A stretch of DNA of 64,000 nt from positions 248,001 to 312,000 of the forward strand of contig NZ_CP082966.1 in the NCBI RefSeq assembly GCF_019968605.1, read 5' to 3'. Within the stretch, counting starts at the first letter, position 1. Each line of letters opens with the position of its first letter. The translations under genes and the position numbers were made by a program. This DNA is from Polaribacter litorisediminis. GTDB taxonomy: Bacteria; Bacteroidota; Bacteroidia; Flavobacteriales; Flavobacteriaceae. Below the pieces are notes generated by a model that was not told the DNA's origin, ran no database searches, and was given only the letters and a program-made list of their open reading frames with translations. Positions 28,666 through 37,227 of the stretch are shown here, in pieces.

Positions 28666-30018
28666 ATGACTATACATTTTATTGCCATTGGAGGAAGTGC
28701 AATGCACAATTTAGCAATTGCTTTACACCAAAAAGGATACCAAGTTTCTGGAAGTGATGATACCATTCATAATCCGTCCAAATCGAGACTAGAAAAATAT
28801 GGATTATTACCAAAAGAATTTGGATGGTTTCCGGAGAAAATAGCATCAAATTTAGATGTGATTATTCTTGGCATGCATGCAAAGAAAGACAATTTAGAAT
28901 TGTTAAAAGCACAGGAATTAGGTTTAAAGATTTATTCATATCCAGAGTTTTTATATGAGCAATCTAAAAATAAAACTCGTGTTGTTATCGGAGGTTCTCA
29001 TGGAAAAACGACGATTACCTCTATGATTTTACATGTGCTGAATTATCATGAAAAAGAAGTGGATTATATGGTAGGTGCGCAGTTAGATGGTTTTGAAACA
29101 ATGGTGCATTTAACGGGAGAAAATGATTTTATTGTTTTAGAAGGTGATGAGTATTTAAGTTCTCCTATTGATATGCGTCCTAAATTTCATTTGTATAAAC
29201 CTAATATAGCATTGTTAAGTGGTATTGCTTGGGATCATATTAATGTTTTTCCGACTTTTGAAAACTATAAAGAACAGTTTAAAATCTTTACAGATTCTAT
29301 GGTTAATGGAGGAAGTATGGTTTATAATGTTGAGGATGAGTATGTAAAAGATGTGGTTGAGTCATCGGAAAATCATATAAAAAAATACCCATATAAAACT
29401 CCAAATTATTTTATAGACAACGGAATTACCTATTTGGAGACTGCTGAGGGTAATTTACCATTAGAAATTTTTGGGAAACACAATCTTCAAAATTTAGCGG
29501 GCGCAAAATGGATTTGTCAACATATGGGAGTTGATGAAGATGATTTTTATGAGGCTATTGCTAGTTTTAGTGGCGCCAGTAAACGTTTAGAGAAAATTGT
29601 TGAAAATAATTCAACCGTTATTTTTAAAGATTTTGCCCACAGTCCTAGTAAGGTTTCTGCAACTACAAAAGCGGTAAAAGAGCAATATTCAGATAGAACA
29701 GTGCTAGCTTGTTTAGAACTACATACCTATTCTAGTTTAAATGCTGAATTTTTAGCAGAATATAAAGGAGCGCTAGATTTTGCTGACAAAGCTGTTGTGT
29801 TTTACTCACCACAAGCCGTAAAAATTAAACAATTAGAAGAAGTTTCAGCGCAACAAATAGCAAATGCTTTTGAAAGAGATGATTTAATTATTTTTACAAA
29901 TCCGGAGGAATTTAAAGACTTTTTATTTAATGAAAATATGGAGAATGCAGCGGTTGTTTTAATGAGCTCAGGTAATTATGGCGGTTTAGATTTTGAAGAG
30001 GTTAAGCGTTTGGTGTAG
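28666..30018 (+). CDS. mpl: UDP-N-acetylmuramate:L-Ala-gamma-D-Glu-meso-DAP ligase (murein peptide ligase)
   Basis: Cytoplasmic Mur-ligase family enzyme that recycles the murein tripeptide by joining it to UDP-MurNAc using ATP. I use the ATG at 28666 (450 residues); two upstream TTG codons are less likely. The N-terminal Rossmann part starts MTIHFIAIGGSAMHNLA, with GIA replaced by AIGGSAMHNLA as is usual for Mpl rather than MurC. The ATP loop is GGSHGKTTITSMI; LSSPIDMRPKFHLYKPNIALLSGIAWDHINVF is the central signature region by position 165-195; GKHNLQNLAGA and DFAHSPSK follow in the C-terminal domains. The 3' end overlaps the converging nucleotidyltransferase gene by 17 bases. Confidence 0.94.
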   Translation: MTIHFIAIGGSAMHNLAIALHQKGYQVSGSDDTIHNPSKSRLEKYGLLPKEFGWFPEKIASNLDVIILGMHAKKDNLELLKAQELGLKIYSYPEFLYEQSKNKTRVVIGGSHGKTTITSMILHVLNYHEKEVDYMVGAQLDGFETMVHLTGENDFIVLEGDEYLSSPIDMRPKFHLYKPNIALLSGIAWDHINVFPTFENYKEQFKIFTDSMVNGGSMVYNVEDEYVKDVVESSENHIKKYPYKTPNYFIDNGITYLETAEGNLPLEIFGKHNLQNLAGAKWICQHMGVDEDDFYEAIASFSGASKRLEKIVENNSTVIFKDFAHSPSKVSATTKAVKEQYSDRTVLACLELHTYSSLNAEFLAEYKGALDFADKAVVFYSPQAVKIKQLEEVSAQQIANAFERDDLIIFTNPEEFKDFLFNENMENAAVVLMSSGNYGGLDFEEVKRLV

Positions 30019-31114
30019 GTTTTTTTAAGCCTAATTGAATGAGTTTTTTTATATAAAAATCTTTGTCTGAAATTCTTGTAAAGAACCAAGTTCTATGTTC
30101 TGGGTTAAAAATATATTTAAAGATAAGATTTAGTATACCTTTTGTACGCAATCTTCTTTTTATTTTTTTTTGATGTTGTATTCTCAAAGAATTATTTTCT
30201 AAAAACATATTAAATATTTCAAGATATTTTTTAGTTTCCAGATTATCATTAAACTCTATTGATTTTGGTTCGTTAAAAAGAATGTGGCAAGAAGCTAAAA
30301 AGCAATTTAAAGGTTTTTTTAATTTTTTAAAATCGTCAAAAGCGTTTTTTGTGGTTGTTTTTTTAGATAATAAAAAAACATCATAAGCATTTCGTAATGA
30401 GATATTTTTATACAGAAAACCATGGTCATTAATTTGAGATGCAAACACAGACAAGCAAAGTTGATTTTTAAAGCTTAAAAAAGATATTCCATTTATCGTT
30501 TGGTAGTCTTTTTTAATAGAATTATAATTAAATTCATCCGCATATTTTTCTATTAAAAGTTCTTTATGAATTTCTATAGCCGATAAATAATTTTTGTGTC
30601 GCATTCTGGGGTAGTGCTTGAATTGTGGATGGACATAATCAGTTTTATAATTTGTGAAATACCCATTATTCTGAATAATTTTTATAGCCTTTTCATATTC
30701 ATTTTTAGAAACAATAAAATCAATATCTCCCACCATTCTTTCTCCAATATCTTCATACAGTCCTTCGAGTAAATTCCCTGTTCCTTTTAAGAAAATGGGC
30801 GTACTATTATGAGCCAATAGTAAGGTGTTAATTTCTTTGGCTTCCGATATGATCTGCTGATTTCTATGCCGATTTAAATCGGTTATACGTTTCATGTAAT
30901 CGACTAAATCTTGCGGCAAATAATCAAGAAAATCGGCTTTTTTTAAGTTGCAATACAGAGTAGGAAAAATAAAATGACTAGTACTTACTTTTACAACAGT
31001 ATCCCAATCAATATGCCCTGCTTTTAAATCCTTTTCAACTATAATTCTATTATGTTTTTCATGATTTATGGTCAAACATTTTCCGATAAAAAATAAGGTT
31101 TCTTTATACGTCAT
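30002..31114 (-). CDS. PF14907-type nucleotidyltransferase, tandem copy 2
   Basis: A 370-residue cytoplasmic protein of the NTP_transf_5 family. The nucleotidyltransferase active site is LKGTGNLLEGLYEDIGERM followed by GDIDF, with probable metal ligands Asp130 and Asp132. The C-terminal 150 residues are helical. It is the downstream of two tandem paralogues; the first 110 residues of both are nearly the same and the C-terminal part is clearly more divergent. The 189-base gap to its paralogue begins with a relic of the kinase gene's 3' end. Family members accompany HPr-kinase-like and PqqD-like proteins in several systems, where they are thought to transfer a nucleotide or sugar-nucleotide-derived group; the substrate here is unknown. 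Confidence 0.85.
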   Translation of the reverse strand: MTYKETLFFIGKCLTINHEKHNRIIVEKDLKAGHIDWDTVVKVSTSHFIFPTLYCNLKKADFLDYLPQDLVDYMKRITDLNRHRNQQIISEAKEINTLLLAHNSTPIFLKGTGNLLEGLYEDIGERMVGDIDFIVSKNEYEKAIKIIQNNGYFTNYKTDYVHPQFKHYPRMRHKNYLSAIEIHKELLIEKYADEFNYNSIKKDYQTINGISFLSFKNQLCLSVFASQINDHGFLYKNISLRNAYDVFLLSKKTTTKNAFDDFKKLKKPLNCFLASCHILFNEPKSIEFNDNLETKKYLEIFNMFLENNSLRIQHQKKIKRRLRTKGILNLIFKYIFNPEHRTWFFTRISDKDFYIKKLIQLGLKKPTPNA

Positions 31115-36800: not shown

Positions 36801-37227
36801 ACCAATCCGTATTGTTCCAAGAATACTCCACACTTAAGTTATCATTAGCATCCCAATCATTTGGAACAGCGCCAAAATCTATCGATAATTTAAAGTTTTC
36901 ATATCCAGTAACATGAATCGGGCCTGTTGATAAGATGCCTACAGTAGAAATTGTTTTAGGATTTGAGCCAACAAAAAACCAAGAATCAGTGATGTTGGTA
37001 TAGGGACCATCACTCCTAATTTCATAAATACTGGGATCACTAGGTTCTGCTCTGTAAAAATATTGTTTTCCAGGATTCGTTGCGGGAGTTTGACTAGGTA
37101 TGTGGTTATAGCCATTTAAATCCGTTTCGAAACCTTGAGAATATAAAGTTGTTTGTCCAAAAGAATTGTTTGCAATTATTACTAAAAATAAAATAATAGC
37201 AATTTTAAAAAAGTTTTTCTGTTTCAC
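33817..37227 (-). CDS. T9SS-sorted surface protein with Calx-beta domains
   Basis: A 1136-residue protein with a signal peptide (about 1-25, ending NSFGQ). An N-terminal beta-sandwich (30-215) is followed by two Calx-beta-like repeats (about 225-335 and 337-450), recognisable by FNETD, DYTINLTPLTFTANET and IVDDE-type ends, then another beta-sandwich (about 455-640). A region beginning near 650 is common in Bacteroidetes adhesin-like proteins (YNIAVSNQWHLVSSPVAGE). The last 80 residues are a type A T9SS sorting domain (NLRIIGLTPGTSNIKLFNMLG, then GIYIIQIETASGKLNKKI). It is therefore secreted by the type IX system and bound to the surface. It is the first gene of the putative operon with the 57-residue peptide and kinase. 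Confidence 0.9.
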   Translation of the reverse strand: MKQKNFFKIAIILFLVIIANNSFGQTTLYSQGFETDLNGYNHIPSQTPATNPGKQYFYRAEPSDPSIYEIRSDGPYTNITDSWFFVGSNPKTISTVGILSTGPIHVTGYENFKLSIDFGAVPNDWDANDNLSVEYSWNNTDWSMLYNFKATDTNFPLNLVNNAIGENNTNNGVVLTYALQTITSNNFVGTGNSMYIRVVCDSGANYEAFGLDNIILTGTAISSDPTLNFETETSSFNETDIDVITSGIPVSLMNYMTSVTITPTVNALSTADPADYTINLTPLTFTANETLMIPLTIKDDTDFLNETIIIDYTVTSGTANLGIHQHTVTIIDNEIPPSIGFNDTNSSETETNITFTSTNIPISVNNYFGERIDINVAITGGTAEVSDYTFTSPTALSFFADETQNITVDIHDDADTDSETLILTITETSSVTGLVIQQATHTLTIVDDEASEGALFNADFSYDNDGFADHSTSAPPIAGSVKVGPFGVSPNTWFLSYNTPPSTDSTLNTFKIVSGKLETTDWGGEGIFESQDIDVTSISTLDIAAFAVTLSDAVQNGSTEFFKYYYILDDGPPVETAIVLSGDTDGTPVNYAITNLDVSSATSLVVGFSFNCNGANDGYAISSFTVTETSSLPTTITWDGSDSPDWATAANWDTGTVPTAFDNVVIPDVATAPIISSTTGAVTNNLTITEPESLNITAGGSLIVTGNSIGEVTYNIAVSNQWHLVSSPVAGETYDDNWADNNNIVSGSGSNRGISTYQNGTPNETTGPWVYMQDGETSTFSSGIGYSLKRTSSGTYSFTGTYPDGKVNPVISRNVNNWNLIGNPYPSYIDIAAFISENTSTHDNLADAFSAIYVWDPDSGTTGAYADLITGYIHPGQAFFVNAKVNGIASITEAMQSHQTAIFYKNANTSIDLFISNGSSTKKTKINYLDDKTKGLDAGFDIGMFNGVSSNTTIYTHLIENNQGIAFARQALPNEDLESLVVPIGVKAYKNTEITFSAEALNLPTGIKILLEDRELHTFTILDEATSTYKLTLAESLNGIGRFYLHTKANNTLNITDTNSEDISMYKTNNSNLRIIGLTPGTSNIKLFNMLGKELMNLDFISKRVQDISLPNLETGIYIIQIETASGKLNKKITSD

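Follow-up and report, generated by a model that had tools for sequence, protein, structure and literature searches.

What does a gene for a 57-residue peptide, followed by genes for an HprK-type kinase and two nucleotidyltransferases, have to do with the gene directly upstream of it, which encodes a cargo protein of the type IX secretion system (T9SS)? The question arises from the window, that is, the whole analyzed stretch of 64,000 nucleotides from Polaribacter litorisediminis (contig NZ_CP082966.1, positions 248,001 to 312,000), in which an earlier note had described five minus-strand open reading frames (ORFs), lying in a row with short gaps or overlap, as a possible peptide-modification locus that includes a T9SS protein. 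All five ORFs were confirmed at the same coordinates, from which it follows that 25 bp separate the T9SS gene from the peptide gene and 75 bp the peptide gene from the kinase gene, that the kinase and first nucleotidyltransferase genes overlap by 14 bp, and that 189 bp lie between both nucleotidyltransferase genes. Taken together, the results favor peptide, kinase, and nucleotidyltransferase working as one functional unit, associated with some of the T9SS cargo; the joining to a T9SS protein is borne out by pairing and co-distribution, while the modification, be it phosphorylation, nucleotidylation, or glycosylation, is putative. The preferred reading, to which a probability of roughly 0.5 is assigned, is a set like those for ribosomally synthesized and post-translationally modified peptides (RiPPs), in which the kinase would phosphorylate a near-invariant Ser of the peptide, the PF14907 enzymes would cap the phosphate, and the product would be a companion peptide for the upstream T9SS cargo. 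This reading builds on the existence of a peptide family whose members pair with cargo genes and occur where the kinase occurs, on the presence of many peptides per kinase, and on intact catalytic residues in the enzymes.

The peptide (33618..33791; minus strand, as for all features of the locus below) had been treated as a gene in the earlier note, and it is not a chance ORF, since a family of relatives was found, with 74 members in a first search and at least 7658 matches at E up to 0.001 when a 29-row alignment served as the query and the best 7993 candidates were scored. Large as it is, the family has no Pfam or NCBIfam model that covers the 29 members tested; isolated members match unrelated models at E 0.02–0.1, and no model matches two of them. 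In the rows listed, the source names of the relatives are "hypothetical protein" or bare sequence-record labels, except for a single row that bears the name of a PTS component. The rough consensus is ITRKEAIKKIGxxGKYAALTALGTYxILNPKKAQAxSPxxPGxGF, and one Ser (Ser48 in the window peptide, codon 33648..33650, the proposed acceptor) is kept in 173 of 174 distinct aligned peptides. This Ser is followed by about nine more residues, the last of which is Phe in the window peptide, and the resulting short tail differs little from copy to copy, with variation in the residues around the Ser. The only Ser-less sequence is the copy in genome G283, which has no in-frame ATG, GTG, or TTG before its RKEA motif. 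In this motif, Arg and Ala are each present in 166/166 peptides reaching that far, and Ala occupies the supposed −1 cleavage position in 162/174. More distant peptides (P0067–P0074, including one of Bacteroidales origin) retain both RKEA and the Ser but have different tails, rich in Lys or in Gly/Asn; judged from these sequences, the family may extend further with other partners.

The pairing with cargo is most complete in the genome of the window itself. The cargo protein of the locus (33817..37227, 1136 aa) carries the sorting domain TIGR04183, a mark of type A cargo, with 35.9 bits against a cut-off of 23; the earlier label of a Calx-beta protein was not confirmed, the only Pfam match listed at E up to 1 being that of the sorting tail. 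The genome, a single contig of 4.34 Mb, encodes one such kinase, eight peptide genes, and three PF14907 genes, so that a view confined to one locus took in one of eight peptide-cargo pairs. All eight peptide genes (8/8) lie directly behind a T9SS C-terminal domain (CTD) gene on the same strand, seven at gaps of 9–27 bp and one at 348 bp, and all eight paired cargo are within the 50 places over the TIGR04183 cut-off in this genome; with an assumed number of ~3700 genes, such pairing would arise by chance with a probability of ~1e-15. Across genomes, TIGR04183 was found in 55 of 59 distinct upstream neighbors, a number that derives from 66 peptide rows after setting aside six without an upstream ORF in reach and merging two rows with a common neighbor. 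The four neighbors without TIGR04183 comprise two FolD genes and two others, by sequence likely those in loci L031 (second peptide) and L103. As a control, 34 of the 42 unpaired CTDs in the window genome were used to build an independent CTD model, which matched 43 of the 46 genes that immediately precede a peptide gene versus 15 of the 476 remaining genes at these loci. In the ten genomes behind the named loci, which have 2–11 peptides each, the best upstream frame is CTD-like at its end for nearly all peptides read, the exceptions being two masked ones, L244, which is frameshifted in appearance, and L264, which is without a frame. Two peptides lie inside open frames of >2200 residues; since these frames contain runs of masked bases, no cargo-peptide fusion is claimed.

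Pairing of this kind could also be left by a cargo-peptide cassette that was duplicated around the genome, with the peptide merely hitch-hiking and irrelevant to the cargo. In fact, one couple among the eight pairs is alike and lies about 2.5 kb apart (L083), and the paired CTDs are of a common subtype; against this, the lengths of the paired cargo vary widely and, for most of them, the last 110 residues share 20–50% identity with those of the window cargo, yet the peptide motif is kept, and hitch-hiking appears very improbable.

The common subtype is marked by what the CTDs lack as well as by what they share. The PNP motif at the CTD start, a further mark sought for type A cargo and defined as seen in the other cargo of the window genome, is found in 0/8 paired versus 33/42 unpaired cargo of this genome (some of the 42 being fragments) and in 0/55 paired cargo across genomes. 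The last 110 residues of the window cargo (33820..34149) accordingly consist of a CTD core and a preceding GxGRF stretch without PNP. By eye, the stretch in paired cargo is GxGRF with aromatic residues, and several unpaired neighbors have the same stretch. A narrower pattern, RF..H, was rejected, being present in 25/43 and 37/55 paired cargo and in 2/15 unpaired CTDs of the same loci. NF033708 (type C, ChiA-like) was also set aside as a name for the paired CTDs: the window cargo reaches 20.8 bits as a whole and 23.9 with its C-terminal piece against a cut-off of 40, and the model fails to separate the paired cargo because it matches weakly in all eight and in 24 unpaired places too, none of them over the cut-off.

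This uniform setting bears on a second explanation, in which the decorated peptides are a secreted RiPP-like product, released as signals or growth inhibitors, and share with the upstream cargo only their regulation. Many peptide copies per genome (2–11, as above) would suit such a product, as would a kinase and nucleotidyltransferase resembling the tailoring enzymes of lasso peptides (PMC9266682, PMC7533575). The short tail with its likeness across copies speaks against it, and so does the upstream neighbor of every copy, a gene for T9SS cargo whose CTD belongs to a single subtype, as does the scan of 16 window proteins around the locus, in which no transporter or immunity gene was found except a TrkH/TrkA potassium pair. 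A secreted product is considered unlikely, although it is a more serious competitor than hitch-hiking.

The kinase and the peptide are also distributed together. The check proposed earlier, namely whether kinase loci in related genomes ever have a short peptide, was answered by 40 kinase loci (11 from Polaribacter, Tenacibaculum, and Flavobacteriaceae records and 29 from other genomes), of which 31 have the peptide and 32 a PF14907 gene. Some of the peptide-less loci are cut by contig ends, which L032 and L076 are not; genomes G123, G383, and G597 and the genome of L032 have no peptide beside the kinase, yet have peptides elsewhere. Among 299 genomes of the bacterial family, 33 contain the peptide and 30 the kinase; both are present in 28, the peptide only in five, and the kinase only in two. 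The peptide-only genomes are G136 (84% complete), G275 (82%), G283 (89%), G295 (92%), and the doubtful G205 (peptide at E 7e-4 in a 428-aa frame), and the kinase-only genomes are G048 (82%, with the kinase at a contig end) and G246 (a weak, partial kinase, E 2.6e-11); both G205 and G246 were kept in the 28/5/2 counts, and G141 was matched by a single-sequence query and not by the alignment query. Where no kinase was found, the peptide can be in decay: three in-frame stops interrupt the G295 copy, and G283 has the decayed Ser-less peptide. In a sample of 345 genomes, peptides occur in five and full-length kinases in the same five, three of them shared with the 299-genome sample. A wider spread of the kinase in this sample was not counted, since 97 of the 102 matched genomes gave weak matches (E 5.8e-16 or worse), mostly to the P-loop region alone.

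The kinase of the window (32406..33542, 378 aa) had been described as a fusion of PqqD-like and HPr-kinase-like parts. The kinase part holds: the protein matches HprK_rel_A (TIGR04352) at E 6.6e-15 with 54.9 bits, below the cut-off of 200, and all 32 kinases compared match this model at E 0.01 or better. The P-loop (GDSGNGKST, residues 212–220, 32883..32909) and H197, K218, D235, and D236 are invariant in the alignment of the 32; the fit of these residues to the His-Lys-Asp-Asp motif of lasso tailoring kinases is by residue order and not by alignment to those kinases. The AlphaFold model (mean pLDDT 92.7) shows an HprK/PEPCK-type fold in residues 191–378 (32409..32972), with the protein beyond its N-terminus matching PEPCK and HprK structures. 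The PqqD part is less clear and comes from weak profile matches together with this model, in which residues 6–76 (33315..33527) form three strands and then three helices, an RRE/PqqD-like arrangement. PF05402 (PqqD) was matched by 5/24 N-terminal pieces at E up to 0.1 and by 2/32 whole kinases at E up to 0.01, and the lasso B1 protein TfuB1 appears in the Protein Data Bank (PDB) structure listing at E 1.3 only; the structure list from VIA-align covers mainly residues 80–378 and is uninformative on this part. The N-terminus is a predicted leader-binding domain.

The two nucleotidyltransferases were correctly assigned to PF14907, with clear matches at E 4.5e-38 for the first (31304..32419, 371 aa) and 2.7e-38 for the second (30002..31114, 370 aa). 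In 22 aligned nucleotidyltransferases D131 and D133 are invariant, and in the first enzyme of the window the codons of D131-I132-D133 (32021..32029) form a DxD of the type that would bind metal in the NTase fold. Fold search gave general NTase relatives and none at E 0.001 or better. The two enzymes of the window are 68% identical to each other, other kinase loci with PF14907 list one such gene, and the third PF14907 gene of the window genome lies about 6.5 kb from another peptide gene. Near a PF14907 gene in L077 there is a gene (14240-14833) with no Pfam match, and genes of like size and placement (about 185–203 aa, with similar C-termini) occur in L044, L069, L070, L072, L074, L078, and L079.

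These enzymes need not act on the peptide, which could be a small helper of the cargo, exported or membrane-bound and without modification, while the kinase set would have a different target, for example the cargo protein or a sugar. The peptide does resemble a signal sequence, with a charged start, a 13-residue hydrophobic stretch, and A-Q-A, and the match of the kinase to HPr kinases leaves its substrate open; retention of the Ser in all but one of the aligned peptides despite variable surroundings, together with the co-occurrence of peptide and kinase, makes such a helper improbable, somewhat more so than a secreted product.

In the preferred reading, the predicted leader-binding domain of the kinase would bind the leader of the peptide, and the kinase would phosphorylate the near-invariant Ser. 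The PF14907 enzymes would then cap the phosphate, an order taken by analogy with the lasso peptide pseudomycoidin, for which a review reports phosphorylation of Ser by PsmK, with PsmN adding a hexose to the phosphate or nucleotidylating first (PMC9266682). The leader would be removed after the A-Q-A motif, the short tail exported, and the modified tail would act on its cargo at the cell surface, most likely by providing the amine for the sortase PorU to link with the cargo; this last role is the least certain. Support falls in the order of action of the kinase on Ser, capping by PF14907, removal of the leader, and meeting of tail and cargo at the surface. PorU is encoded in the window genome and in 9/10 genomes tested. 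In G283, the genome with the decayed peptide, PorU is present as two pieces with an in-frame TGA (G283:C2:875781-879150).

Several observations weigh against this reading. No modification of the peptide has been observed; in the leader, two Thr are nearly as conserved as the Ser (171 and 173 of 174), and the window peptide has Ile, not Ala, at the supposed −1 cleavage position. The figures are biased toward conservation, because the peptide set was gathered by similarity, and the genome counts are raw, with shared ancestry not corrected for. PF05402 stays below its cut-off in the window kinase (E 0.0049 with the whole protein and 3.8e-4 with the N-terminal piece), and 8/40 kinase loci are without a PF14907 gene, of which L031, L033, and L041 are not at contig ends. 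In addition, the 82–84% complete genomes G136 and G275 keep intact-looking peptides with no kinase found, and G151 has the kinase while the sole peptide found there has an in-frame stop. Finally, of the 15 unpaired CTDs that lie at these loci in other genomes, six have PNP and nine are without it, and several of the nine have the GxGRF stretch of paired cargo, so that two or more cargo genes may be served by one peptide, or the subtype may extend beyond the pairing.

A bolder version of the preferred reading makes the peptide a ribosomally made anchor: every special T9SS cargo would have a co-expressed peptide of its own, whose Ser would receive a phospho-sugar or nucleotide from the single kinase and PF14907 set, the leader would be cut at A-Q-A, and PorU would attach the cargo at the free N-terminus of the peptide. 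This version is held only tentatively and is on the unlikely side. If it were true, a protein and its own surface tag would be encoded as neighboring genes, and a second acceptor route would exist beside the linking sugar of lipopolysaccharide (LPS). According to a review, the way in which PorU chooses effectors to release or to attach is still to be unravelled (PMC10202324); a cargo-paired peptide with a modification set and a matching CTD subtype would make this choice testable. The system would also link HprK-type peptide modification, known from lasso peptides, with the sorting of T9SS cargo, two fields that are unconnected in the papers found, and no description of such a system was found in the literature as covered by titles and the beginnings of abstracts, mostly of papers outside subscription.

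Around these genes, promoter- and terminator-like sites are no more frequent than in shuffled sequence, no Rfam match was found at the locus, and PADLOC returned nothing for four of its proteins. A Pfam scan of window proteins gave one general transglutaminase-core protein (17381-18340), and a minus-strand gene at 21900-28493 encodes a protein of 2197 aa which, by eye, we take to be a bacterial alpha-2-macroglobulin, presumably with a carboxypeptidase-D-like and a TonB plug-like (SusC-like) stretch set inside.

HPr-rel-A sets have a separate PqqD partner and a link to the exosortase. All 32 kinases match the model of these sets, TIGR04352, whereas the window kinase stays far below its cut-off (as above), the PqqD-like part is fused to the kinase, and T9SS takes the place of the exosortase. 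Among the 16 window proteins scanned, none had a Pfam match to a B2 protease or lasso cyclase. Because defining features of each are lacking, the system is filed neither as lasso nor as HPr-rel-A. With PorU-dependent attachment it shares CTD cargo and an encoded PorU, which, according to the review, may use an amine, an amino acid, or a short peptide instead of LPS when it attaches cargo, so that a short peptide can be the acceptor (PMC10202324); unlike the known LPS linking sugars, which carry serine or glycine (PMC7468200), the acceptor here would be a ribosomally made peptide. As in the tailoring of lasso peptides, for example by PadeK/ThcoK or by PsmK/PsmN, there are an HprK-like kinase with His, Lys, Asp, and Asp, a nucleotidyltransferase partner, a predicted PqqD-like leader binder, and a proposed Ser target (PMC9266682). 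Here, in contrast, the conserved Ser is not C-terminal in the precursor, the PqqD-like part is fused to the kinase, and there are many precursors at dispersed places in the genome, every one of them preceded by the gene of a T9SS cargo; by analogy, it is nevertheless lasso tailoring that the putative way of working resembles.

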